From Thermoplasmata archaeon (GTDB lineage: Archaea; Thermoplasmatota; Thermoplasmata; Lutacidiplasmatales; UBA184): 64,000 nucleotides of DNA. The stretch lies in contig JAKIWI010000003.1 of NCBI GenBank assembly GCA_022750115.1, forward strand, positions 36,927 through 100,926. The letters run 5' to 3'. Numbering within the stretch: position 1 is the first letter of the stretch; each line of letters starts with the position of its first letter. Below are positions 20,241-33,940 of this stretch, piece by piece. The position numbers and the translations under genes were made by a program. The notes beneath the pieces were generated by a model, which was not told the DNA's origin, did no database searches, and was given only the letters and a program-made list of their open reading frames with translations.

Positions 20241-21143
20241 TCAGCGCGTCGAGGTCCGCGCGCGGGTCCTCGCGAGCACGTAGCGCGCGGCGAGGCTCAT
20301 CGCGAGCATCGCGAGGACCAGGAGGAGCGCGCTCCCCCAGGCGATCGACTCGTAGCGGGGGATCCCGCTGATCCCGTAATAGTAGATCACGAGAGGAAGG
20401 GCTGCGACGGGCCGGTTCAACCCCGCGAAGTCGAAGGTGTTGCCAAAGGCGGTCATCAGGAGTGGCGCCGTCTCACCGGCGGCCCGTGCGGTGGCGAGGA
20501 GCGCTCCCGTGAGGACGCCAGAGCCGGCGGCCGGCAGCACGACCCGCAAGATCGTGCGGAAGCGAGGAAGGCCGAGGGCGAGGGCCGCCTCGCGCGTCGA
20601 AGTCGGCACCAGCCGCAGCGCTTCGTCGGTGGTCCGCGCGACGACGGGCACCATGATGAGGCCGAGGGCCAGCGAGCCCGAAGCGGCGCTGAAGATGTAG
20701 CGCGATTCGATGACGTTCGCCTCCGAGAGATACACCAGGAGCGAGAACACGACGATCCCGATGACGATCGACGGGACGCCCGACATCACGTTCACAAAGA
20801 ACCGAACCCCCCGACCGAGTCGGTTGTCGCCGTATTCGGAGAGGAAGACGCCGGTCAATACGCCCACGGGGAATGCCACGAGGGCGGCAAGACCGACAAG
20901 GAGGACCGTTCCGAGGATCGCGTTGTTGATCCCTCCGCTCGAGCACACCGCTCCTGCCGGGCAGATCACCGCCGGCGGGCCGGAGGTCGTGAGGAGCGAG
21001 AGGTTCAGCGCCGGGAGGCCCTGGGAGAACGCCGCGAACAGGATGCTGCCGAGCGGGATGAGGGCGAGCCCGACGCAGAGGATGCAGAGCGCGGATATCA
21101 CGCGGTTCGCCCATCGTCGACGGCCGCGGCGGGTCGGCCTCAT
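20241..21143 (-). CDS. pstA: Phosphate ABC transporter permease PstA
   Basis: A 300-residue inner-membrane permease. Six helices are visible, and the cytoplasmic coupling loop EAALALGLPRFRTILRVVLPAA is the EAA motif that meets the ATPase. AAGETAPLLMTAFG is a hallmark of PstA. The ATG at 21143 overlaps the end of pstC by 4 bases (ATGA), which fixes the start against the much longer open frame upstream. No pstB ATPase gene follows, contrary to the usual pstSCAB order. Confidence 0.9.
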   Translation of the reverse strand: MRPTRRGRRRWANRVISALCILCVGLALIPLGSILFAAFSQGLPALNLSLLTTSGPPAVICPAGAVCSSGGINNAILGTVLLVGLAALVAFPVGVLTGVFLSEYGDNRLGRGVRFFVNVMSGVPSIVIGIVVFSLLVYLSEANVIESRYIFSAASGSLALGLIMVPVVARTTDEALRLVPTSTREAALALGLPRFRTILRVVLPAAGSGVLTGALLATARAAGETAPLLMTAFGNTFDFAGLNRPVAALPLVIYYYGISGIPRYESIAWGSALLLVLAMLAMSLAARYVLARTRARTSTR

Positions 21144-22138
21144 TCGCGCGCCTCTTCCGGGCGGAAGAATCGACCGAGCAGCAGCACGGCGACGACGTTC
21201 ACCACGACCGTGATCGCGAGCAGGACGAGCCCGAGCTCGAGGAGGGCGCTCTGCTCGAGCGGGGAAGTCGCGGCCGTCAGGAAGTCGTTCGCGATCCAGC
21301 TCGCGATCGTCTGTCCCTGGCTCAGGAGGGAGGTCGAGAGCGTGTTGTTGTTGCCGATGGTCATCGTCACCGCCATCGTTTCTCCGATGGCCCGGCCGAG
21401 GCCGAGGATGATCGCCGCGACGATCCCGCTGCGTGCGAATTGGAGGACCCCGACGCGGGTCGTCTCCCACTGGGTCGCGCCGAGGCTCAGCGCTGCTTCC
21501 CGCTGGGTCGTCGGGACGGCGACCATCGCCTCCCGCGAGACCGCAGAAATCGTCGGGATGACCATGACGGCGAGGATAATCCCCGCCGTCAGCTTGTCCG
21601 CGCCGAAGATCTGACCGGTGAACAGCCCGGTCCAACCGAGCTGGGCCCGCAGGTGCGGTTCCACGGTGACCCGCATGAACGGGACGAGGACGAACAGACC
21701 CCAGAGGCCGTAGATGACCGACGGGATCGCGGCGAGCATCTCGACGAGGCTCGCCATCGGATCGCGGAGCCACGGCGGGGCGAGCTCCGACATGAAGATC
21801 GCAATCCCGAGGCTGATCGGTACACCGAGGGCGATCCCGATCGCCGACGTGACGACCGTTCCTTCGATGAACGGGAGCGCCCCATAGAGCGGCGGGCGGG
21901 CGTTGGCGTTCCAGGTCGAATGGGTGAGGAACCCCGGACCAAACGCGGTGAACGCGAGCTCCGAGCGAAGGGTCAGCAGAACGGTCAGGACGGCCAGAGC
22001 GGCGAGTACTGCGAGCGCGATGCCGGTGCTCAACCATTGGAAGAGCGGGTCGCCCCACCGACGGAGCCACCCTCCGGCCCGGACGACGCGAACTGCCTCC
22101 GCGGCGGGCCCTGGCGCGAGCTCGAGGCCGGCAGCCAC
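21140..22138 (-). CDS. pstC: Phosphate ABC transporter permease PstC
   Basis: A 332-residue permease, partner of PstA. The family motif GIALGVPISLGIAIFMSELAP, the EAA loop REAALSLGATQWETTRVGVL and the PstC-typical RAIGETMAVTMTIGNN are present. It begins 17 bases after pstS and overlaps pstA, giving a tight pstS-pstC-pstA transcript. The N-terminus has about 25 extra polar residues before the first helix. Confidence 0.9.
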   Translation of the reverse strand: MAAGLELAPGPAAEAVRVVRAGGWLRRWGDPLFQWLSTGIALAVLAALAVLTVLLTLRSELAFTAFGPGFLTHSTWNANARPPLYGALPFIEGTVVTSAIGIALGVPISLGIAIFMSELAPPWLRDPMASLVEMLAAIPSVIYGLWGLFVLVPFMRVTVEPHLRAQLGWTGLFTGQIFGADKLTAGIILAVMVIPTISAVSREAMVAVPTTQREAALSLGATQWETTRVGVLQFARSGIVAAIILGLGRAIGETMAVTMTIGNNNTLSTSLLSQGQTIASWIANDFLTAATSPLEQSALLELGLVLLAITVVVNVVAVLLLGRFFRPEEARE

Positions 22139-22155
22139 CCGAACCAGTCCTCGGA

Positions 22156-23364
22156 TCAGTGCGTCGAGACGGCCGCCCCGTTGTAGGTGACTAGACCGAG
22201 CGTCTGCTCGTCAAGGGTCACGACGTTCGCGGGCAGAGGAACGTAGAACACGCCCGGAGCGAACGACTGACCCGCGGTCAACACCCAGTAGATGAAGTGA
22301 CCCAGCGAATCGGCGTCGGCCGACGTGATCGACGACCCGAACACTGTTGTGAGGTCCGAGTAGACCATCACGTAGGAGAACGTCACGATCGGGTACGTCT
22401 GGGCCCCGGGCTGGTTCAGGAGGCTGACGTTGTACCAATCCCCGCTACCCGGCGGAAGGCTGGCGCCTCCCTCGGACACGGCCGTCTGGACATTCGATTG
22501 ATTCGCGAGGATGAAGCTCCCAGCGACATTCTGGACAGCGGCGAACGTGAGGTGGTTCAGGTCGGCGTACGCGAGCTCGTCGTAGCCAATGGCCCCGGGA
22601 GTCGTGGTCACCACACCTGCGACGCCAGTGCTGCCCTTGGCGGCTTGACCGACGGGCCAATTGACCGAGAGTCCGCGCCCAACCGTGTCCGCCCAGGTCG
22701 TGTTCACCTGGCTGAGGTAGCTCGTGAAGCAGAACGAAGTCCCGCTTCCGTCAAGGCGGTGGACGACGGTGATGGGCATGGCGGGAATCGTCACTCCCGA
22801 GTTCAACGCGGTAATCTGGGGGTCGCTCCAGTTCGTGATCGTACCGAGGAAGATGCCGGAGATGACCGCGCTCGAGAGGTCGATCGTAGCGACGATCCCA
22901 GGAAGGTTGTAGAGCAGCACGACGCCGCCCGAGGTCTCGGGAATGCTCAAGGTCGGGCCGGGGAGCGCGGCGCGCTGGGCTGGACTCAGGGGGGCGTCCG
23001 ACGCACCGAAGTCAACGGCCTTGTCTTCGAGGGAGGTAATCCCGGACGAACTTCCCACGGGTTGGTAGTTCACCTGCACATTGCAGAGTTGAGCGTACTG
23101 AGCCGTCCATGTGTTCATCAACGGGTAGACGAACGTCGACCCCGCTCCGGTGAGGCTCTGCGGATTCGACGGGCAATGCGCTCCTCCAGAGGCGGCCGGT
23201 TTCAGCCACCCCCCCGCCGTAACTCCCCACGCAACAACGGCAACCACGATCACCACGACGACAACGACTCCCAGAAGCACACCCCTGCGGCGACGCTGAG
23301 GAACCTTCGACAGGTCCGAGGTTGTCGCCGTCGGGTCTGCGAACGACGGAGAGGGGGTACTCAT
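22156..23364 (-). CDS. pstS: Phosphate-binding protein PstS, N-terminally membrane-anchored
   Basis: A 402-residue binding protein that captures phosphate for PstCA. A single helix (GVLLGVVVVVVIVVAVVAWG, about residues 28-48) anchors it; there is no lipobox. The phosphate pocket motifs are all visible: GAGSTFVYP, VGSSSGITSL, VDFGASDAPL and the RLDGSGTSF loop, equal to R-x-D-G-S-G-T of E. coli PstS. The frame runs upstream to 23541, but a TATA-like box at 23466 lies inside that stretch, so ATG 23364 with a leader of roughly 75 bases is preferred. Confidence 0.9.
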   Translation of the reverse strand: MSTPSPSFADPTATTSDLSKVPQRRRRGVLLGVVVVVVIVVAVVAWGVTAGGWLKPAASGGAHCPSNPQSLTGAGSTFVYPLMNTWTAQYAQLCNVQVNYQPVGSSSGITSLEDKAVDFGASDAPLSPAQRAALPGPTLSIPETSGGVVLLYNLPGIVATIDLSSAVISGIFLGTITNWSDPQITALNSGVTIPAMPITVVHRLDGSGTSFCFTSYLSQVNTTWADTVGRGLSVNWPVGQAAKGSTGVAGVVTTTPGAIGYDELAYADLNHLTFAAVQNVAGSFILANQSNVQTAVSEGGASLPPGSGDWYNVSLLNQPGAQTYPIVTFSYVMVYSDLTTVFGSSITSADADSLGHFIYWVLTAGQSFAPGVFYVPLPANVVTLDEQTLGLVTYNGAAVSTH

Positions 23365-23465
23365 CGGGAACCCCGGTCGGCCGAACGGCCTCGACGAAGG
23401 TGAGCAGAGATCGGGCCCGGTCCCGGGTCGGCTCGCAACGACATCAGCGTTGGACCTCGGTAGTC

Positions 23466-23475
23466 GGATATAGAC
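23466..23475 (-). promoter_or_regulatory. TATA-like box of pstSCA
   Basis: ggatatagac, read leftward as gtctatatcc, is the best TATA match between the pilin-PstS gene and pstS. It implies a separate pstSCA transcript with a leader of about 75 bases, long for this genome and a place for regulation. Confidence 0.4.
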
Positions 23476-23627
23476 GATTCTTAGCGAGACTCCGTAACCC
23501 TCGGAAGTTACCGTAGAAATGCGGTTCCGGTCGCACGCCAACCGTAGCCCAGGGGCGGCCGCTCTTCGGAGGGAAAGAGGACGAAGGCGAGGGGAGGAAG
23601 GGGTTGGTCTTCGCCGCTCCGCTCGAC

Positions 23628-25019
23628 CTAGATCGAGTAGATGCTGACCTCAGCAGACTCCGTGGCGAAGTTCTGGTTGTTTGCAGGGTCCAAGACGAAC
23701 TGCATGAACCGCTGAACCTCACCCGTGGGGGCTCCGATCGTCACGAACTCGAACGGGCGCCAGCCAACGTACTGGGTGGCCGCCGTGCCCGCGCCCAGAA
23801 TCCCGTTGGCGATAGTGCCGCCCGCTCCCGTCGTGGGAAGGACCGCGTTGGTCTGCCCGACGCCCGAGAATCCGACGATCGCGACGCCCGAGCCGGTGGC
23901 TCGCGCGAGGCCGTCAGAGCCGTAGCCGATCGCGTCCGGGTGCCCGCCAACGCCCGCGATGACCGCGGGGTTGCCGTTGCCCTGCTGGGCCGCCGGGATG
24001 ACGAGGCCGCAGCTCGTGGGCTGTCCGTCCGGCGAGCAGCCGCCGAAGCCAAGTCCAGCCTGGGTGCCGGCGCTGTCCCCAACTCCGAGGAGACGCGCGG
24101 TGAAGGACTGGCTCGTTCCGCTGTTGTCGGATCGGATCCACGGTTGGACTGCGTCCGTCGCGGTTCCGGTGATCGTCGCTGCCGTGCCCGCGAAGGGTCC
24201 GGCGCACACCAGGAAGCCGCACGGGGTAGTCGTGCCCGTGATGTCGTTGCCGCTCACGGTCGCCGCCATGCCGGTACCGGTGTTGGCACCCGCCGGGACG
24301 CCCGCCGCCGCCTGGACGAGGCCGCCGCAGGTCTGGCCGACAAGGCACGCCGGGATCTGGTCCCAAACGATGCCCGTCGTGACAGTCCCGGCGTAGCTAA
24401 CGCCCTGGGTCTGCGGGAAGGTGTACCCGCCGGTCGCCGAGCCGGTGTAGCCGGCGTGGCCGCCGCCGTTGGCCTGGTAGATGGTCATCAGGGTGTCCGC
24501 CTGCATGCTGACCAGTCCGTGAGTGTTGGCGGACGGGACCAGGATGTCCACCGCGTCGTACGCGACCGTCGTGATGACGGGCGCGGGGCTCTGGCCGCAG
24601 CCGTAGCCACCGGACGAGATCGGCTGCTCGAGCTGCGTGAGCGTCTCGAGAGACGATGCCGTGCCGATGTCAACGTTGTGCGCACACACCGAGAGCATTC
24701 CAGCCCCGGAGCCGCCCTGATTGTTGCTCAGGACGACATCCGAGTTGTTCTGCTGGAATTGTGTGACGGCGAGGGCCGTGAACGGGAACACCGAGGTGCT
24801 TCCGCCAATGCTCACCGTCGACTGCGCTCCGGGGTTGCCAACGCCCGACGTGACGCCGCCCTGCCACGCGACCAACCAAAGGTACAGCGCTGCCGCGGCC
24901 GCAACCGCGATCAGGATCAGGATGAGCGTCGCCACGACTGGCGACACTGCCTTCCGCTCCTGCTGGAAGCGCCGGTACCCTCGCCGGTTCCTCATTCGTC
25001 GAGTTCCTTTCTCTCCCAT
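23628..25019 (-). CDS. PstS-like phosphate-binding protein with type IV pilin signal (pilin-PBP fusion)
   Basis: About 463 residues from ATG 25019, which has aaggagagg just upstream; ATG 24995 is possible. The N-terminus is an archaeal class III (prepilin) signal: basic residues, RK at 22-23, then AVSPVVATLILILIAVAAA, cut by a prepilin peptidase before Ala24 so that the helix can pack into a filament. The rest is a PstS-type binding fold: VSIGGSTSVFPFTALAV, NQGGSGAGMLSV, NVDIGTASS, the phosphate loop RSDNSGTS (296-303, R-x-D-x-S-G-T) and a closing GEVQRFMQFVLDPANNQNF. Several cysteines suggest disulfides. It is upstream of pstSCA on the same strand and divergent from a pilus assembly operon, which fits a surface phosphate-capture fibre or bindosome. 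Confidence 0.85.
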   Translation of the reverse strand: MGEKGTRRMRNRRGYRRFQQERKAVSPVVATLILILIAVAAAAALYLWLVAWQGGVTSGVGNPGAQSTVSIGGSTSVFPFTALAVTQFQQNNSDVVLSNNQGGSGAGMLSVCAHNVDIGTASSLETLTQLEQPISSGGYGCGQSPAPVITTVAYDAVDILVPSANTHGLVSMQADTLMTIYQANGGGHAGYTGSATGGYTFPQTQGVSYAGTVTTGIVWDQIPACLVGQTCGGLVQAAAGVPAGANTGTGMAATVSGNDITGTTTPCGFLVCAGPFAGTAATITGTATDAVQPWIRSDNSGTSQSFTARLLGVGDSAGTQAGLGFGGCSPDGQPTSCGLVIPAAQQGNGNPAVIAGVGGHPDAIGYGSDGLARATGSGVAIVGFSGVGQTNAVLPTTGAGGTIANGILGAGTAATQYVGWRPFEFVTIGAPTGEVQRFMQFVLDPANNQNFATESAEVSIYSI

Positions 25020-25261
25020 TCGTTGTTTCCTCTCCTTTCGGTTCTTCGTGCAGTTGCGGTTCTCGGTTCCGAGCCTCGCCGCTGCGGCCGTTCCATCGGG
25101 CTCCGGGTTCTTAGCCGTCCTCGAATGAAATGCCGTAGCACCTCGAGGACGTCGGTTTCCACCGTGTGTGAGGTCGTCACCCACGGTGAGAAGGGGGGGC
25201 CACGGAGACTACGGAATCTCCGGACGCATCGTTCATTCCCGAAGTCCCGTTCAGTCCATCG
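25020..25261. promoter_or_regulatory. Divergent region between pilin-PBP and pilus assembly operon
   Basis: About 240 bases between two outward-facing genes of the proposed phosphate pilus. Apart from the Shine-Dalgarno-like aaggagagg before 25019, I see no convincing TATA box. The leftward frame continues open through most of it, so a longer form of the pilin protein cannot be excluded, though that would bury the signal peptide. Confidence 0.3.
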
Positions 25262-27061
25262 ATGGAGCAGTCCGCAGACGGTCCTACCGCCCTTTCGGGC
25301 ATGCGTGACCAGCTGCCGGCGGTCCTCCGGAGGGGAATTCCCGCCGGCGCCAAACCGAAGGACCGCGCGACCCTCCAGAAGCAGGCGCTCCAGCTCGAGA
25401 AGACCCTACTCAAGCGCCGGACGACGCCGGAGAAGGTCTTCATCCAGGCGGAGCTGGGCTACATGCGCCACCAGCTCCAAGGTGACCGCCGACTCGTCAA
25501 CGTGACCTATGCCGTAAACCCGCCGTACGCCTTCGTTCACATTTCGTTCAACGAGGGGATGGGGGAGTTCGACTACACGGTCCTCGAGCCGAGGCGCTCG
25601 CCAGCCGAGCTGAAGCAGACCGTCGAAATTCGCGCGCGGATGGAGGCGCAGATGGGTCAGGAAGAGATTCCGGTCTCGGCCGGGATCTCGCTCGCCGAGT
25701 CGGCGGAACTGAAGGAGTATCTTCGGAAGAAGTTCCTCTCCGTCCTCGACCTGTACAATATCGATGTCTTGCCGAAGCGTCAGCCAGTTCTTCTCTACTA
25801 TCTCGTCCGAGAATTTCTCGGGTTGGGCCAAACCGACCCGATCCTCCGCGACCCGTTCCTGGAGGACATCAGTTGCCTTGGCCCGCACCTCCCGATGTAC
25901 GTCTTTCACCGGGTGTTCGGCTCCTTGCGCACGAATGTCCAATACGACAACGACATCGAACTGAACAAGTACGTTTTTCGGCTTGCCCAGATCGCGGGAA
26001 AGCACATCTCGATCTACCAGCCGATCCTCGACGCGACGCTCCAGGACGGAAGCCGGATCAACCTCACGCTCGGTACCGAAGTTACCCGAAAGGGTTCGAC
26101 GTTCAGCATCCGGAAGTTCTCCGTCGATCCGGTCTCGCCTATCGACCTGCTTCGATTCGGCTCCGTATCGGCGCAGGAACTCGCGTACTTCTGGACCCTC
26201 GTGGACAATCACCGTTCGTTGCTCATCTCGGGCGGTACCGCCGCCGGCAAGACCACGTTCCTGAACGCGATCTCGATGTTCATCCGTCCGGAGGACAAGA
26301 TTGTCTCGATCGAGGACACGCCGGAAATCCAGATCGACCACGAGAACTGGATCCAGTCCGTGGCCCGTACGGGCTACGGCACCGCCTCGGGGATTGGCGG
26401 GGCCTCCGGCATTTCGGGCCATCCGTCTCAAGTCGTGAAATCCGCGGGTACCGTCACCCTGTTCGACCTGCTCGTCGCGGCGCTTCGCCAGCGGCCCGAG
26501 TACGTCATCGTCGGCGAGGTCCGGGGCGCGGAATCGTTCACCTTGTTCCAGGCGATCTCCGTCGGACACGCGTCGATGTCCACCATTCACGCGGGCTCGA
26601 TCGGGGAGCTAATCCACCGCGTCGAGAACGAGCCGATGAACATCCCGCGCGTCCTCTTTCAGGCACTCGATTGCGTGGCGTTCCCCGCCCAGGTCGTCGT
26701 CAACAACAGTCGGGTTCGCCGCATTACCGGCGTCACCGAGATCCTGGACGTCGATGCCGCGACGAACGAGCTCCTGACGAACGATGTCTTCCGATGGGAA
26801 CCGGCGAAAGACCACTTCACGTTCCTCGGGCGGAGCTTCGTCCTCGAGGAGATCTCCGAGCGCAGCGGCAAGACGATCGAAGCGATCCAGGGGGAGATGC
26901 GGCGCAAGGAGCAGTATCTCGACCTGATGGCGAGGCTTGGGATGACCTACTACAAGGATGTCAGTCGGGCGATCGCGTCCTACTACGTCGCCCCCGACGA
27001 CGCGTTCAAATCCCTCGATTCCAAGGTTGCTCAATCGCTTTCCGCCCCGGTCGGACGCTAG
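25262..27061 (+). CDS. Type IV pilus / type II secretion assembly ATPase (archaeal GspE/TadA family)
   Basis: A 599-residue hexameric motor that powers filament assembly at the cytoplasmic membrane. Visible are an N-terminal regulatory part (to ~290), Walker A GGTAAGKT (324-331), Asp box SIEDTPE (349-355), Walker B VIVGEVRG (415-422) and His box STIHAG (440-445). A glycine-rich insert (GYGTASGIGGASGISG, 371-386) between Asp box and Walker B is seen in archaeal pilus ATPases. The next gene starts 6 bases on, so it heads an operon with two platform proteins. Divergence from the pilin-PBP gene suggests that protein is a client. Related motors include archaellum FlaI, PilB-like and BasE. Confidence 0.9.
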   Translation: MEQSADGPTALSGMRDQLPAVLRRGIPAGAKPKDRATLQKQALQLEKTLLKRRTTPEKVFIQAELGYMRHQLQGDRRLVNVTYAVNPPYAFVHISFNEGMGEFDYTVLEPRRSPAELKQTVEIRARMEAQMGQEEIPVSAGISLAESAELKEYLRKKFLSVLDLYNIDVLPKRQPVLLYYLVREFLGLGQTDPILRDPFLEDISCLGPHLPMYVFHRVFGSLRTNVQYDNDIELNKYVFRLAQIAGKHISIYQPILDATLQDGSRINLTLGTEVTRKGSTFSIRKFSVDPVSPIDLLRFGSVSAQELAYFWTLVDNHRSLLISGGTAAGKTTFLNAISMFIRPEDKIVSIEDTPEIQIDHENWIQSVARTGYGTASGIGGASGISGHPSQVVKSAGTVTLFDLLVAALRQRPEYVIVGEVRGAESFTLFQAISVGHASMSTIHAGSIGELIHRVENEPMNIPRVLFQALDCVAFPAQVVVNNSRVRRITGVTEILDVDAATNELLTNDVFRWEPAKDHFTFLGRSFVLEEISERSGKTIEAIQGEMRRKEQYLDLMARLGMTYYKDVSRAIASYYVAPDDAFKSLDSKVAQSLSAPVGR

Positions 27062-27067
27062 GCGTCG

Positions 27068-28042
27068 ATGTTCGAGAGCGTCGAGGGTCCCACCGAATCG
27101 CGAGACGCCCCGCCCGTCATCGAGAGCCTGCCGAAGCTCAAGGCCAAGAAGTCGAGGACCGAGCCCGCACTCTCCCCCGCCTACCGATCGTTCTGTTACC
27201 GCCTCCTTGGCGAGCGGTTTGATCGCGGCGAGGTCGACATCGTCGCCGCGGAGCGACTCAAGCAAGCCGGCCTGAATATCTCGCCGGGAATGCACCAGGC
27301 GGTCGTCGTGGTCACGACGATCCTCGCCGCGGTCGCCGCGTTGGTGTTCGGCCTCTTGCTGTTCCTCCTCGTGCTCCACTCCCCTTTGTGGTACGGCTAC
27401 GTCGCACTGACCGTCGGGGTCACCGTGATGGCCGTCCAGGCCGGATTCCGGTCCGTCGTCAGCACGCGGATTTCGAATCGCCAGGACCAACTCGACCGAG
27501 AACTGCCGTTCACCCTCAGTGAGCTCTCGGTCCTCGCCAGCACGGGGACGTCCCCGATCGGGCTCATCCGGAGGATGGCGATCCGGGATCATGACCCTGG
27601 GATGACGATGGAATTCAAGCGCGTCATCTACAAGGTCGACATCCAGGGGGAGGACCTGATCACCGCCCTCGCCGAGACGGCGAAAGAGTCGCCCTCGACT
27701 TCGGTCCGCGAGGCGTTCTGGGACCTCGCCAACATGATTCACCAGGGCGGGGACCTTGACGAGTACCTTCGAAACAAGTCGGACGACGTGCTGAAACTGA
27801 AGCGGCTCGTCCAAAAGGCGTTCATCGAGCGCTTGTCGACGTTCCTCGACATGTACGTCTCGCTCGTCCTCGTCGGAGTCCTGATGATCGCCGTCGGGGC
27901 CTTCCTCCTGAACTCGCTCGGCCAGACGGCTGCCGGGCTGGACTCGAACGAGCTTCTGCTGGTACTGACGTTCGGGCTCGTCCCGCTGGCCGTCATCATG
28001 ACGGTGATCATGATCTCGATCGCGTACGCGAGGGCGGAGTGA
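27068..28042 (+). CDS. T2SSF/TadC-type pilus platform membrane protein
   Basis: A 324-residue platform component that couples the ATPase to pilin extraction. A basic cytoplasmic N-terminus (to ~75) is followed by two helices (VVVVTTILAAVAALVFGLLL and YGYVALTVGVTVMAV), a cytoplasmic T2SSF helical bundle (LPFTLSELSVLASTGTSPIGLI, VREAFWDLANMIHQGGDL) and two C-terminal helices. Archaeal systems often have one platform protein; here a second follows with a 4-base overlap, as in Tad systems where TadB and TadC form a pair. Confidence 0.85.
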   Translation: MFESVEGPTESRDAPPVIESLPKLKAKKSRTEPALSPAYRSFCYRLLGERFDRGEVDIVAAERLKQAGLNISPGMHQAVVVVTTILAAVAALVFGLLLFLLVLHSPLWYGYVALTVGVTVMAVQAGFRSVVSTRISNRQDQLDRELPFTLSELSVLASTGTSPIGLIRRMAIRDHDPGMTMEFKRVIYKVDIQGEDLITALAETAKESPSTSVREAFWDLANMIHQGGDLDEYLRNKSDDVLKLKRLVQKAFIERLSTFLDMYVSLVLVGVLMIAVGAFLLNSLGQTAAGLDSNELLLVLTFGLVPLAVIMTVIMISIAYARAE

Positions 28043-29469
28043 GCGCACGCGGCGCGGCCGCGACGATTCTCCTCGTTCTCACGGTCGTCCTCCTTCCGAC
28101 GCTCCTGGCGAGTCACGCCGGGGCCGCTGCGAGCACCGGCGGCAGCCCGATCACGATCACTCCGCTGAGTCCGTCCCCCGGGAGTCAGGAGCCCTCGAAG
28201 ACACCCACGATCCAGGCATCGTTCATCGATTCCGCCGGTACCCCGATCCCCTCGACGGTCACGGTCACCGTGGGTTTCTACAATCTGACCGATAGCGAAG
28301 GCTGGAAAGCGACCCCGGAGGGGGTGACCGTTCCGGTCCCGACGATCCTCCCCCTCAAGAATGGAGTCTGGAACGTCACGGTAGGGGTCGCCGACACCGC
28401 CGGCCACTTCACGAACCTTACCTGGAATTTCACGGTCAATCCCAACGCGACCGTCGCGCCCGCGCCGGTGTTCTCCGTGAAGGCCCAGACGGTGCTCGTC
28501 GACATCGGCATCGGCGCGGTCGTCGCCGTGGTGGCGTTTTTCGCCTACATCTGGTACCTGCGGCAAACGACCCGATTCGCCTTTCGAAAGTATTTCGCCA
28601 CGCACCCGATTCAGAAGGAGTACCTCGTTCTGTACATTCCACTCGTCGTTGCGTTCGTCTTCGTCCTGCTCGGTCTCGATTACGTCACCTCGACTCCGGG
28701 CCTCCCGTCGTACTCGACCGACCTCGTGATAATCATCGGCGTGTTCATCGGACTCACGGCCTACGGAATCGATGCCCGTCGCCAGCTGTCCCGCCTTCGT
28801 GTGTTCGAGCGGGCGTTCGCGCAGCTCCTCTTCGAGCTCGCGGACGCGATGCGCGGCGGCCTTGATCCCGCCAAGGCGATGATTGAGCTCTCCAAGACGC
28901 ACACCAACGTCCTCCGGAAGCCGCTCAAGATCGCGGCCGACGGCCTCCTCCTCGGGCGACGATTCGACGCCGTCCTCCACGACATGGTCGAGCCGATGAA
29001 GAGCCCCCTGATCCGACGCTACGCCGCGCTCATCGCAGAAGCGACGGATGTCGGCGGCGAGACCGCGATCGTGATCTACCGGGCGGCGAAGGATATGGAC
29101 GATTTCGTCAAGATCGAGGAAGAGCGGGCGAATCAGCTCACCCTTCCCATCGCCGTCATTTACATCGCGTTCGCCGTCTTGATGGCCGTCCTGTTCGCCC
29201 TGCTATACATCGCGCCCGAACTCGGCTCGCTCAACATCGGCCTGATCAACGGCGGGGGGAGCGCGCTCAAGGGGACGACGGCGAGCACGGTCCCTCGGCT
29301 CGACGTAGACACCCTCCACGAGCGGTTCTTCGAGCTGTGCATCATCAACTCGCTCGGAACCGGCGCCATCATCGGCGCCTTCAGTGAAGGCCGCGCCCGC
29401 TACGGGATCGTCCACGCGCTCGCGCTGGTGGCGGCGACGACGATCGCCTTCCTGTTCATCTTCCCCTAG
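28039..29469 (+). CDS. Pilus platform protein with N-terminal secreted Ig-like domain (T2SSF fusion)
   Basis: 476 residues with an unusual layout. A signal-like helix (AATILLVLTVVLLPTLLA) leads to an extracellular domain of about 110 residues (35-145) with Ig/fibronectin-like beta strands (TVTVGFYNLTDSEGW, GVWNVTVGVADTAGHF) and N-glycosylation sequons. A helix (~152-175), two more helices and a cytoplasmic T2SSF bundle follow (AFAQLLFELADAMRGGLDPAKAM, IAEATDVGGETAIVIY), then three late helices. Standard platform proteins lack an outer domain, so this could guide or grip the fibre outside. It overlaps the preceding platform gene by 4 bases (GTGA). Confidence 0.85.
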   Translation: MSARGAAATILLVLTVVLLPTLLASHAGAAASTGGSPITITPLSPSPGSQEPSKTPTIQASFIDSAGTPIPSTVTVTVGFYNLTDSEGWKATPEGVTVPVPTILPLKNGVWNVTVGVADTAGHFTNLTWNFTVNPNATVAPAPVFSVKAQTVLVDIGIGAVVAVVAFFAYIWYLRQTTRFAFRKYFATHPIQKEYLVLYIPLVVAFVFVLLGLDYVTSTPGLPSYSTDLVIIIGVFIGLTAYGIDARRQLSRLRVFERAFAQLLFELADAMRGGLDPAKAMIELSKTHTNVLRKPLKIAADGLLLGRRFDAVLHDMVEPMKSPLIRRYAALIAEATDVGGETAIVIYRAAKDMDDFVKIEEERANQLTLPIAVIYIAFAVLMAVLFALLYIAPELGSLNIGLINGGGSALKGTTASTVPRLDVDTLHERFFELCIINSLGTGAIIGAFSEGRARYGIVHALALVAATTIAFLFIFP

Positions 29470-29494: not shown

Positions 29495-30361
29495 TCACGT
29501 CTGGTAGGTGTAATTGATCGTCGAGCTGCCGATGAGCCCGTTCGAGTTCTGCACCATCAGCGCGATCGTGAAGGTGAACGTCTGCCCGATTTGCGTCGAG
29601 ACGAACGGCGCGATTAGCTTCTCTCCCGCGTAGGTCTGGGGAGGGGGACTGAGGCCGCCAGTCGTGTTGACGACGGACCAGGTCCACGACACGATCGTGC
29701 CGTTCCCCTGCTGGAACGACGTCGACCCATCGAGAACGGGCACGTTGCGGAACTGCATGCCGACGAATTCCGATACCGTCCCGATCAGGGGGATGGCGGT
29801 GGGCGGAAGGAACACCGAGGTGAATGTGTTCTGCAAGATGGTGAACAGGTCGATCTGCAGGTAGGAGTTCACCAGCAGCGTCGTCGTCGGCGAGAAGAAT
29901 CCGTTCGGGCAGGTGCCCGTCGACAGGAGGTTCACGGTCACCTCCACTTGCTGGAACGACGGCAGGATGAATTGGGTCGAATCGTCGTAGCAAAACGGAG
30001 CTCCGCCGGACGGCGAAACGTTCTGGACGAGGAAATGGGCGAGAGGGTTCCCGTTCACGGCGATCGAGGCGACGGTCGAGGGATTCACGAACTCGCTCGC
30101 GAGAACGAACGAGAAGCTCCCCAGCATCAACTGGTTCGGCACCGGTCGCGGCGTGACCCCCGTCACGTCCAGCACCTTCAGCGATTCGAGGCTCCGTTGG
30201 TGCGCCTCGGCCTGCTGCGCCTGCAATTGCTTCTGGTACGAGGCGACGAAGGCCGCGAGCGCGATCGAGGCTGCTACTACGATCAGTACCAGCATCAGCG
30301 TGCCGACAACCTCCGCGATTCCTCGGTTTCCCATCGGGAAACGGCGTACCGCCCGTCGCAC
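29495..30361 (-). CDS. Type IV pilin-like protein
   Basis: About 288 residues from a GTG at 30361; ATG 30334 (MGNRGIAEVV) is an alternative start. The class III signal is clear: a basic N-terminus, NRG, then IAEVVGTLMLVLIVVAASIALAAF, followed by a polar coiled extension (YQKQLQAQQAEAHQRSLESL) and a beta-rich C-terminal domain with FCYDDSTQF and a CPNG cysteine. It is convergent with the platform operon and is the likely structural or minor pilin of the system. A cctaaagg box about 25 bases before the GTG supports the longer form. Confidence 0.8.
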   Translation of the reverse strand: MRRAVRRFPMGNRGIAEVVGTLMLVLIVVAASIALAAFVASYQKQLQAQQAEAHQRSLESLKVLDVTGVTPRPVPNQLMLGSFSFVLASEFVNPSTVASIAVNGNPLAHFLVQNVSPSGGAPFCYDDSTQFILPSFQQVEVTVNLLSTGTCPNGFFSPTTTLLVNSYLQIDLFTILQNTFTSVFLPPTAIPLIGTVSEFVGMQFRNVPVLDGSTSFQQGNGTIVSWTWSVVNTTGGLSPPPQTYAGEKLIAPFVSTQIGQTFTFTIALMVQNSNGLIGSSTINYTYQT

Positions 30362-30397: not shown

Positions 30398-30477
30398 TAC
30401 GAAGATTGTGTAGTTGGACCGTAATCTTCGTACACTCCCTATGGCATCGTTATGCGAGTGGAGCGGTAGTTGGCTGC

Positions 30478-31107
30478 ATGGGGCTCCCGGTCGAGGTGCC
30501 GGGCCTCGGCACCATCGTCCACGAGCTCTCCGAAGGGACGATCGTCATCGTCGAGAGTGGCGCCGACGGTGCGAAAAGTTTCCTGGTTCGCACGCTGGCC
30601 CGGACGGCTCTGAATCGGGGTTGGCCGGTCACCTATCTCACCTCCCGTGACGGTCCGGACGTACGGACGGCGCTCCTCAACGGCGGCGTCGCTGCCCCTC
30701 CACCGGCGGGACTTCTCAGCGTGGTCGAGCTCGACTCGCTGAAGGACTGGCTCCCCGTCGGGCTTGAGCGCGGCCTCCTCGCCATCGACTCGTTTTCGTT
30801 CCTGACCCTCGACCTGACCCCGACCCAGCTCGCCACCACTTTGCGGGAGCTTCGGGAGCGGTGCCACCGGTCCGGTCTCGCCGTCGTGCTGGCGACCGAC
30901 CGCGGGATGTTCGAGCCGCGGGGCGAGGCGATTGCGATCCATCTCGCCGACGGTCTGATCCAGTTCCATACCAAGGAAGGGCCCGAGGGACTGATCCGAT
31001 ATCTCCGGGTACCGAAGTGGTCGGCAGGTACGTTAACCGACCGAAATATCTACTACGATTTCGACGGCAAGCACATGGCGATCGACCTGCGACGACGGGT
31101 GCTGTAG
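30478..31107 (+). CDS. RecA/KaiC-like ATPase with degenerate Walker A (FlaH-like role possible)
   Basis: A 209-residue RecA-fold protein. The P-loop reads ESGADGAKSF, i.e. GxxxxAKS with the second glycine replaced by alanine; Walker B is LLAIDSFSFL. The strand order (VPGLGTIVHEL, IVIVES, WPVTYLTSRDG) matches KaiC/RAD55/FlaH proteins, which partner pilus motors in archaellum systems. ATG 30478 begins directly before the core; the frame upstream is not conserved-looking. It sits 9 bases before an AAA+ gene, in the pilus neighbourhood. A role as an accessory regulator of the motor is inference. Confidence 0.65.
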   Translation: MGLPVEVPGLGTIVHELSEGTIVIVESGADGAKSFLVRTLARTALNRGWPVTYLTSRDGPDVRTALLNGGVAAPPPAGLLSVVELDSLKDWLPVGLERGLLAIDSFSFLTLDLTPTQLATTLRELRERCHRSGLAVVLATDRGMFEPRGEAIAIHLADGLIQFHTKEGPEGLIRYLRVPKWSAGTLTDRNIYYDFDGKHMAIDLRRRVL

Positions 31108-31116
31108 GGGGATTCG

Positions 31117-32247
31117 GTGCCCGCGCCGTCCTACGAACGCTACGGACTCGTCAGCAACCCGTTCCGGGACCTGGCAAGTGAGAGTCTCGAGGATGTCGAG
31201 CTCTTCCACGTCAACCTCGAGCTCGACCGGCTCCTCGAGACGATGCGCGAAGAGGTGTTCGCGAAGGAGAACCGAGCGGTCGTGGCGCTGGTCGGCCTCC
31301 ACGGGGCCGGCAAGACCGAACGATTGCTACTCACAGCGGCGGAAGCGAAGGCCCGGACGGCGTTCTCCGTCTACTTCGACGTCACGACCAAGACGACCTG
31401 GGTGACGAAGGGCGTCGCGTCCGCCGTCGTCGCCGCGGCCCACTTCGGTGGATTCAAGCAGTTGTTCAGCGCCCCCAAATGGTTCCGCGACATTGTCGCG
31501 GTCCAGAAGGCCAAGGAGACCGCGTACGACCCCGTGCGCACCGGTCGAGCGATCGCGAGCGCGCTGAACGCGAACGCCCCCGCGTTCCTTCTGCTGAACG
31601 ATCTCCACAATCTCGCCGCCACCAAGGAGCGGGTGCTGTTCGTCAAGACCCTCCAGGAGATCATCGACGGAATCAAGCCGGGGGTCATGATCATGTTCGG
31701 CGCGTTCCCGAGCTTCATGCTCCAGCTCGCGCGCGAGCAGACTCCGCTGACGAGCCGCATCAACCGGACGGTCGTCCTCCCGCGACTCTCGGCCGACGAG
31801 GCTACCTTACTCATCGCCAAGAAGCTCCTTGCGAAGCGTCTCGTCGAGGGGCTAGACCCGCTCTACCCGTTCGACAAGGACGTCGTCACCAAACTGAACC
31901 TCATCGCCTTCGGGAATCCCCGCCGCCTGCTCGAGCTCACGGATGCGGCCCTTGAGTTCGGCGCTGCCCATCGGTCGTACCGTGTCGATGAAGAGATCCT
32001 ACGGACCGCCCTCGTCGAGCGCAAGGTGAAGGAGATCGACCGCATCATGGACGAATCGTTCTCCTGGTCGGAAGACACGATCTTCGATGACCCCGCCCAT
32101 GCCCAGTCCGTCCCACCGAGCGCTACCCCCGCGTCCCCCACCAAAGCGGCCGTCGCCAGCGCCTCGGTAGCTTCGCCGACCTCCGCCGCGGGGTCGCTGC
32201 CTGTGTCGCGCTCCGGGCCCGGCGAGCGCGGAGTACCCCCGTCGTGA
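31117..32247 (+). CDS. AAA+ ATPase (ExeA / Cdc6-like) with low-complexity tail
   Basis: 376 residues. The opening YGLVSNPFRDLASES is the typical start of ExeA/GspA-like and ORC-like AAA+ proteins. Walker A is GLHGAGKT (60-67), Walker B AFLLLNDLHNL, sensor 1 is near MIMFGAFPSF, and a late IAFGNPRRLLELTDAA is sensor 2-like. The last ~60 residues are Ala/Ser/Pro-rich. GspA/ExeA relatives help insert secretion machines in bacteria. Here it is co-transcribed with the RecA-like gene next to a pilus locus, so an assembly or positioning role is plausible but unproven. Start is GTG 31117. Confidence 0.7.
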   Translation: MPAPSYERYGLVSNPFRDLASESLEDVELFHVNLELDRLLETMREEVFAKENRAVVALVGLHGAGKTERLLLTAAEAKARTAFSVYFDVTTKTTWVTKGVASAVVAAAHFGGFKQLFSAPKWFRDIVAVQKAKETAYDPVRTGRAIASALNANAPAFLLLNDLHNLAATKERVLFVKTLQEIIDGIKPGVMIMFGAFPSFMLQLAREQTPLTSRINRTVVLPRLSADEATLLIAKKLLAKRLVEGLDPLYPFDKDVVTKLNLIAFGNPRRLLELTDAALEFGAAHRSYRVDEEILRTALVERKVKEIDRIMDESFSWSEDTIFDDPAHAQSVPPSATPASPTKAAVASASVASPTSAAGSLPVSRSGPGERGVPPS

Positions 32248-32896: not shown

Positions 32897-33940
32897 TCAG
32901 GCCGTCACGGCGACGCGCTTCGGGCGGTCCGTCTCGGAAATGACGGCCATGTTGATCGCCTGCTCCGCGATGTCGGCGGCGTAGCGGACGGTCCTCCCGA
33001 GGCTGTCGACGACCGTTCCGAGGGCGAGGAGCTCCTCTCCCTTCCGGGTCGCGACATGGTGCGTGAGTTGGTCAATCAGTTTCTGGTGGTCCGTCTGCCG
33101 GTCGATCGCCTCGTTCGCGGCCTCGACGTCGCGGGCGATCAGGGCACCGAACGACTTGTCGAGGATGGAGACGGCTGAGTTGGTCGCCTCCTCGAGCTCC
33201 TTCATCAATTTCCCATCGATCGCTTTGCCCGGGCCGAGGGTCCCGAGGGTGCCCGCGATCCGCTCCGCATGGTCCCCGACGCGCTCGAGGAGCTTCGCGA
33301 CGAGGCAATGACTCTGGATTTCCGCGGCCTGGCCCCGACCGTCGGCGTCGCCGGGGAACGGACGGAGCATGTGGTACTGCTTCGCGACCATCCAGTAGAG
33401 GCGGTCGACATCCTGGTCCCGCTGCGCAACGTCGTGGGCGAGCGAAGTGCCGCCCGACTTCAGGGCGAGGATGGCATCCTCCAGCATCGCCCGGACGATG
33501 AGGTGCATCCGGCGGAGGCACTTCTCCGAGTTGAGCTCCGACGTATCCGAGAGGTCCTGGATGACGAGGGCCGTGCGGGTCTCCTCGATCACTTCCGGGC
33601 CGATGACGAGGTGGCAGAACTCGCGGGCGACGCGGCGGACGAACGGTCCCCGCGGCGGGTGGAAGCGCACCTCGATGAGTCCGAAGCCGGAGATGTACGC
33701 GCCGATCAACTTGCGGAGCAAATGATCGCGGGTGTCCTCCCCGCGCTCGTCGAACACCTTGCGGAGCACCGCGGGCTTCTCGTGCGGCTGACGGCGCACG
33801 GAGACGGAGCCGTCCACCTCGGTCTCGACGAAGATCGTGTCGCCCGCCTTGAGTCCCGAGCTGTGAACCCAGCGTTTCGGGAGAGAAACGAGGTACGTCG
33901 AGCCTCCGGCGAGCTGTAGCTTGCGGCCCTCCAATGGCAT
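32897..33940 (-). CDS. AbrB-PhoU phosphate uptake regulator
   Basis: A 347-residue archaeal PhoU. An N-terminal AbrB/SpoVT swapped-hairpin DNA-binding domain is visible (1-45: LQLAGGSTYLVSLPKRWV, GDTIFVETEVDGSV), followed by PhoU helical bundles (~115-340) with metal-cluster-type acidic repeats such as KLLERVGDHAERIAGTLG and DSLGRTVRYAADIAEQAINM. Members of this family couple phosphate status to transcription and Pst activity. It is not adjacent to pstSCA (about 9.5 kb away) but flanks the pilus and phosphate region. A TATA-like cttaaag lies about 37 bases upstream. Confidence 0.85.
   Translation of the reverse strand: MPLEGRKLQLAGGSTYLVSLPKRWVHSSGLKAGDTIFVETEVDGSVSVRRQPHEKPAVLRKVFDERGEDTRDHLLRKLIGAYISGFGLIEVRFHPPRGPFVRRVAREFCHLVIGPEVIEETRTALVIQDLSDTSELNSEKCLRRMHLIVRAMLEDAILALKSGGTSLAHDVAQRDQDVDRLYWMVAKQYHMLRPFPGDADGRGQAAEIQSHCLVAKLLERVGDHAERIAGTLGTLGPGKAIDGKLMKELEEATNSAVSILDKSFGALIARDVEAANEAIDRQTDHQKLIDQLTHHVATRKGEELLALGTVVDSLGRTVRYAADIAEQAINMAVISETDRPKRVAVTA

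Follow-up and report, generated by a model that had tools for sequence, protein, structure and literature searches.

A predicted extracellular Ig-like domain on the split type IV pilus platform of a pilin-PstS cassette in Thermoplasmatota

The stretch of DNA analysed here (the window) comprises 64,000 nucleotides of contig JAKIWI010000003.1 from a Thermoplasmata archaeon, and coordinates given without a locus name count from its first letter. At 28039-29469 on the forward strand lies a single frame of 476 codons that begins with GTG and contains no internal stop. A Pfam scan of its product returned a sole match, to T2SSF (PF00482) at residues 266-389 (E 4.8e-11), and the score of 43.1 bits against a curated cut-off of 25.2 places the protein in the platform family of type IV filament machines. 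The gene is encoded beside a secretion ATPase (25262-27061, +) and TadC1 (27068-28042, +), an arrangement conserved in orthologs. TadC1, a platform N-half with a T2SSF domain (Pfam E 1.4e-11) and no Ig domain, is co-conserved with the 28039-29469 product, hereafter the Ig platform. In NCBIfam, the two adjacent genes match the two halves of ArlJ; thus, the platform is split, and its second half carries about 190 additional residues in front. The closest solved relative of the ATPase is A. fulgidus GspE (2oap), with a phmmer score of 385 bits versus 288 to FlaI.

The start of the Ig platform gene overlaps the TadC1 stop in the sequence GTGA (28039-28042, +), which suggests translational coupling. 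Directly after this overlap, residues 1-29 (28039-28125, +) form a predicted Sec-type signal peptide with a basic start and a hydropathy peak at residues 6-24; across 24 orthologs its position is conserved, but its sequence is not. Residues 30-148 are hydrophilic, beta-rich and sequon-rich, and include a putative extracellular Ig-like (Big/FnIII/CopC-like) beta-sandwich at residues 38-135 (28150-28443, +), assigned from AF2, VIA-align, Pfam and sequon evidence. The next hydrophobic helix, at residues 151-169, lies within TM1 (28483-28572, +), modelled by AF2 as helix 149-178 and predicted from hydropathy to run from outside to inside. It leads into a basic and aromatic, putatively cytosolic loop (residues 172-193; 28552-28617, +), which contains RQTTRFAFRKYFATHPIQKE and is conserved and sequon-free. 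Beyond the loop lie the canonical platform helices TM2 and TM3 (residues 194-245; 28618-28773, +), placed by hydropathy and the positive-inside rule; the T2SSF domain, with the cytosolic helical bundle and TM4 (28834-29205, +); and the C-terminal platform helices TM5 and TM6 (residues 423-473; 29305-29457, +), seen by AF2 as helices 423-450 and 453-473.

Ordinary C-half platforms begin in the cytosol, and their customary layout includes no extracellular domain. The Ig platform departs from this layout, although not from the family. An extracellular N-terminal domain on such a protein would need one more transmembrane helix, and exactly one is present. In the class survey, matches outside the family of the source genome start at model position ~201-240, as do most in the phylum. 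Since ordinary relatives start about 200 residues later, the signal peptide, the Ig domain and TM1 (149-178) constitute an added module; by this comparison of sequences, the helix at ~149-178 is part of that module, is absent from canonical relatives and does not count as the first helix of the canonical platform. The second platform pair of the source genome has no such N-terminal extension. TM1 and the loop can, however, be aligned to N-extended platforms without an Ig domain (L137, L138), so TM1 may predate the Ig domain. Mean pairwise identity is 0.68 for the loop, 0.71 for the T2SSF core and 0.38 for the Ig domain, and it is likely that the loop serves as an interface.

Computation shows the Ig domain on the outer side of the membrane. 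The charges of the predicted loops obey the positive-inside rule when the Ig segment is placed outside, and that segment holds 106 N-glycosylation sequons in the ortholog set versus 45 expected from shuffles, which ignore shared ancestry. The whole cytosolic T2SSF segment holds 2 sequons, and the loop at residues 172-193 holds none. The preliminary description of the locus, made by inspection of the letters, had proposed a pilus platform with a signal-like N-terminal helix and an Ig-like domain outside the cell, and fold prediction, topology and the T2SSF match bear both proposals out. Its stretch of ~110 beta-rich, sequon-containing residues likewise stands; its designation of the following helix as the first helix of the platform does not, because relatives begin near residue 200.

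The fold of the N-terminal domain was modelled from an alignment of 24 full-length orthologs. In the full-length AF2 model, a beta domain with pLDDT of about 80-88 accompanies the helices of the platform; modelled alone, the Ig domain reached a mean pLDDT of 89.7 and a pTM of 0.78, refuting the alternative that this segment contains no folded domain. Foldseek searches with the full model retrieved CopC, titin Ig, SiiE and collagenase PKD domains, each over about 100 aligned columns, which fits the N-terminal domain. VIA-align matched the Ig domain to mannanase, CopC, FnIII and PKD structures with Z up to 11.3, and AF2 and VIA-align together identify the domain of the window as an Ig/FnIII-type beta-sandwich. 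Members of the alignment match bacterial Ig families in Pfam, 14 of the 24 with Big_13 (best E 3.1e-7). The domain encoded in the window itself stays below cut-off (CopC, 17.2 versus 23.3 bits; Big_13, 13.8 versus 27) and is therefore classified by fold rather than under a named family, and a comparison of the Ig profile with the sequences of solved structures gave nothing significant. Copper binding, suggested by the similarity to CopC, was rejected: the aligned Ig segment has no conserved histidine, so the similarity is one of fold only. In the alignment of the 24 orthologs, the invariant residues look like parts of the core and the turns, and a surface patch is not evident among them.

Chance does not account for the Ig domain. 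All orthologs whose 5' end is intact retain it, even those as distant as 38% identity, and dN/dS values of 0.14-0.46 for the Ig segment, compared with 0.06-0.21 for the platform, indicate purifying selection. That the N-terminal ~145 residues might instead be a separate small secreted protein, with the platform starting internally and the long frame being an annotation error, is suggested by ordinary TadC2 relatives, which start near residue 200 of the Ig platform. Yet one open frame spans the Ig domain and the platform in all orthologs. Where both ends are readable, its start is pinned by a four-base overlap (NTGA) with the TadC1 stop in 21 of 22 orthologs (the lone exception has GTAG at that site), with the signal peptide right behind. 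Moreover, the two copies that appear to start at residue 151 run into contig ends. The conserved overlap and the unbroken frame rule out an internal start, and a two-gene arrangement, which the preliminary description had named, along with a prediction lacking a folded domain, as a finding that would overturn it, is extremely improbable.

Candidate orthologs lacking the Ig domain (G012:C130, G005:C151, L081, L084 and L085) were likewise rejected, as all are cut by contig ends. The late-starting matches G012:C130, G005:C151, G287 and G290 sit at contig ends, and in G012 the N-terminal piece of the Ig platform lies on another contig. The G005 bin holds three copies of the gene (C107, C146 and C151, corresponding to L039, L037 and L045), which may be paralogs or a strain mixture. 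At L068:6422-8473, the ortholog frame continues past the usual end to 684 codons, through either a frameshift or a C-terminal extension.

The gene order conserved in the genus is pilin-PBP (-), ATPase, TadC1 and Ig platform (+), pilinB (-), KaiC-like protein and AAA ATPase (+), and PhoU (-). The pilin-PBP (23628-25184, -) joins a type IV pilin N-terminus (TIGR02537, 2.2e-8; pilin motif near 24953) to a PstS-like domain (PtsS_2, 1.2e-15), and its profile matches PstS structures and, through its N-terminus, archaeal pilus cores. A second pilin with a beta-rich C-terminal part, pilinB (29495-30361, -), scores just under the cut-off for TIGR02537 (7.3e-4) and below that of Pfam Pilin_N (0.0021), and is syntenic in nearly all loci. 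The product of 30406-31107 (+) gives weak KaiC and FlaH matches and is a KaiC-family ATPase-like protein, ArlH-like at best; a comparison with solved structures yielded nothing significant, and its distant ortholog in L082 matches KaiC at 1.2e-13. The AAA ATPase (31117-32247, +; AAA_22, 5.4e-4) is syntenic, as is, within the genus, the PhoU-like protein (32897-33940, -; TIGR02135, 1.2e-19). Conventional PstA, PstC and PstS genes adjoin the cassette (20241-23541, -), with PstS at 22156-23541 (TIGR00975, 6.5e-96); PstC and PstA of the window were named from their sequence and were found by homology in syntenic loci. For a prepilin peptidase, the source genome gave a sub-threshold match only.

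Orthologs were surveyed in 78 genomes of the genus and 340 of the phylum, a sample consisting mostly of MAGs. The Ig platform occurs in 25 of the 78 genus genomes, with the domain in all intact copies, and outside the family in 5 genomes of families f44, f39 and f57. Within the genus, 19 genomes hold both the Ig platform and the pilin-PBP, 6 the Ig platform alone, and 5 a pilin-PBP with its pilin N-terminus alone. Four of these last 5 end at contig edges, 2 of them with the ATPase still adjacent, and the fifth (G297) is 63% complete, with its gene beside PhoU. Among genus genomes at least 85% complete, the pilin-PBP is present in 11 of 11 with the Ig platform and in 0 of 23 without it (Fisher p 3.5e-9, a value that, like the next, ignores shared ancestry). 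The sole blemish lies in G148, whose C-terminal fragment of a PBP is located at the end of a contig. In the 340 genomes of the phylum, the pilin-PBP accompanies the Ig platform in 7 of 8 cases, the eighth being cut upstream (Fisher p 8e-14). The correlation of the domain with pilin-PBP genes that the preliminary description had proposed to look for is thus a strong genomic link. Because the two genes are neighbours and co-inherited, the co-occurrence shows one system rather than direct contact between the Ig domain and the PBP; indeed, the domain is found nowhere outside the pilin-PBP cassette in the Thermoplasmatota sample, and it is thus the system as a whole with which the domain correlates. 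Other archaeal phyla were covered for the N-terminal module by one scan with the peptide patterns AAKDMDD and RGG[LI]DPAKA, by which distant Ig platforms could be missed. In L082 (WJKY01000074.1), the cassette and an adjacent PstB lie on a Woesearchaeota-labelled contig of a 0.6 Mb bin, through either transfer or mis-binning.

The PstS-headed type IV pilin is conserved from the genus of the window to distant families of the phylum (L139:5408-6598, L140:4504-5679 and L141:13367-14512). In these three distant loci, which have full flanks, the pilin-PBP again adjoins the ATPase and Pst genes surround the cassette. The Pst genes near distant cassettes include a PstC-PstA fusion and PstB, the latter named from its sequence, and PhoU is present in L141 and L152. 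The fusion, of about 1100 amino acids, is encoded next to the pilin-PBP (L139:1861-5229, -; L141:14620-17871, +) and has, between TM5 and TM6, a beta-rich stretch of about 350 residues that contains sequons. Other PBP_like_2 genes, conventional PstS among them, are present in the genomes as well; thus, the main receptor for phosphate may be a protein other than the pilin-PBP.

Platforms decorated in other ways were also encountered. In several Nitrososphaerales genomes, a Big_1 domain (E 2.3e-8 to 6.2e-5) follows the last platform helix (L086:1568-2935, L166:2015-3277, L175:7-1308 and L178:1501-2853). As in the window, an extracellular Ig-type domain is thereby joined to a T2SSF platform C-half, but it lies at the opposite end of the protein, belongs to another Ig family and needs no added transmembrane helix, and it apparently arose independently. 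The L086 locus encodes a pilin and a surface protein, both of large size, with no PBP in the examined neighbourhood, which weakens the idea that an Ig domain is a general marker of PBP clients. Three further platforms (L125:1483-2856, L131:658-2241 and L136:1489-2637) contain an acidic stretch of ~85 residues between the first two transmembrane helices, with DxDxDG-like motifs resembling calcium-binding repeats. In others (L122:1-2313, L123:1498-3852, L128:1-2247, L129:1495-3741 and L134:1498-3795), a multi-TM N-terminal extension of ~500 residues replaces the ordinary short platform start.

Split platforms have been described before, as CdiPFa/CdiPFb of the Cuniculiplasma CdiP pilus (PMC12448462) and as TadC pairs in an archaeal census (PMC4858521). 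These share with the window a two-gene platform near an ATPase, the second gene being the C-half of an AapF/ArlJ-type platform; the accessible portions of both reports mention no extracellular Ig-like domain, whereas the C-half of the window adds a signal peptide, an Ig domain and a transmembrane helix. ArlJ is a homologous T2SSF platform but, in the accessible text of its description, a single polypeptide with neither a folded extracellular domain nor a binding-protein pilin (PMC8978795). In the Sulfolobus bindosome (BasABCEF), sugar-binding proteins bear pilin-type signal sequences, and the Bas genes are needed for growth on these sugars, according to the available part of that report (PMC4187195). 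The window resembles it in the type IV pilin signal on a binding protein (TIGR02537 and a PstS-type domain in one protein). The Sulfolobus binding proteins depend on an ATPase plus a platform and serve ABC importers; in the window, genes for an ATPase and a platform adjoin that of the pilin-PBP in conserved synteny, and Pst genes lie next to them. The bindosome, however, binds sugars and has BasF as its single platform protein, whereas the window encodes a PstS-like head and a split platform with an Ig domain, and its binding-protein gene sits beside the machine and the Pst genes, unlike in Sulfolobus. Models of BasE and BasF gave weak matches to the window proteins, far below cut-off. A literature search, for which most subscription papers were out of reach, found no platform bearing an extracellular Ig domain and no phosphate-binding pilin cassette in the texts available to it.

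Taken as a whole, the cassette found in some Thermoplasmatota points to an undescribed filament-based machine for phosphate capture. The second half of its split type IV platform has received, as a graft, a signal peptide together with an Ig-like domain and a single additional transmembrane helix, and the machine may work like a bindosome, assembling short filaments or arrays of binding-protein pilins. The ATPase and platform, whose genes adjoin that of the pilin-PBP in conserved synteny, would act on it. The pilin-PBPs would capture phosphate at the cell surface and hand it over to a Pst importer, through which the cassette would serve phosphate uptake. More tentatively, the Ig domain would act as an extracellular dock or a fixed collar beside the pilin exit, contacting filament subunits, the permease or the surface protein coat while pilins are lifted from the membrane. 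We regard this reading, from grafted module to bindosome-like phosphate machine with an Ig dock or collar, as fairly probable. Its most ambitious form, in which the machine is dedicated to phosphate capture by filament and the Ig domain and the PstC-PstA insert together make an extracellular docking site coupling assembly to import, is possible but doubtful.

The preliminary description had further suggested that the Ig domain might hold the emerging filament or bind client proteins such as the pilin-PBP; for a client receptor, specific support did not emerge. Mirror-tree comparison of the Ig domain with the PBP ectodomain gave no sign of extra co-evolution (partial r -0.15, p 0.85; 17 loci, low power), and that with the pilinB ectodomain revealed nothing beyond the shared tree (17 loci, low power). 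Together with the Nitrososphaerales platform without a PBP nearby, these results speak against a receptor reserved for the PBP and favour a general role where the filament exits, as a dock, a collar or an anchor. ArlF and ArlG are thought to tie the archaella machinery to the outer coat, and the Ig domain could similarly be a stator tying the platform to an outer protein or glycoprotein coat, with client pilins untouched. Its fast-evolving, sequon-rich surface fits contact with a variable coat, the C-terminal Ig-type domains of Nitrososphaerales platforms occur with no PBP in the examined neighbourhood, and the accessible text on Thermoplasmatales proposes a dense glycoprotein layer, in place of a regular S-layer, as an anchor for filament machines (PMC12448462). 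We nevertheless consider such an anchor, the main rival, rather unlikely: the second pilus system encoded in the source genome lacks an Ig domain, ordinary relatives in the class manage without one, and in the Thermoplasmatota sample the domain appears only alongside the pilin-PBP cassette.

A purely structural role would cast the signal peptide, Ig domain and TM1 as aids to insertion that present the loop at residues 172-193 to TadC1 or the ATPase, the Ig domain having no partner. Such a role would explain why conservation of the loop comes close to that of the T2SSF core when that of the Ig domain does not, and why TM1 and the loop recur in the Ig-less platforms noted above; it is nonetheless improbable, given the purifying selection on the Ig domain, its retention among distant orthologs and its absence from canonical relatives. 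We therefore favour the dock or collar in a bindosome-like machine, with the anchor as its principal competitor.

To our knowledge, few core components of type IV filament machines are as poorly understood as the platform proteins, which are drawn as parts of the membrane and cytosol only. A folded domain outside the cell, at the point where pilins leave the membrane, would offer a handle for tagging, cross-linking and imaging. The Big_1 domains that apparently arose independently at the C-termini of Nitrososphaerales platforms suggest that decorating the outer face of platforms is a recurrent solution. In the Thermoplasmatota cassette, the machine is encoded together with its binding-protein pilin, and through the link between this pilin and the Pst genes, the bindosome concept would reach beyond the sugars of Sulfolobus to phosphate, and to another archaeal phylum.
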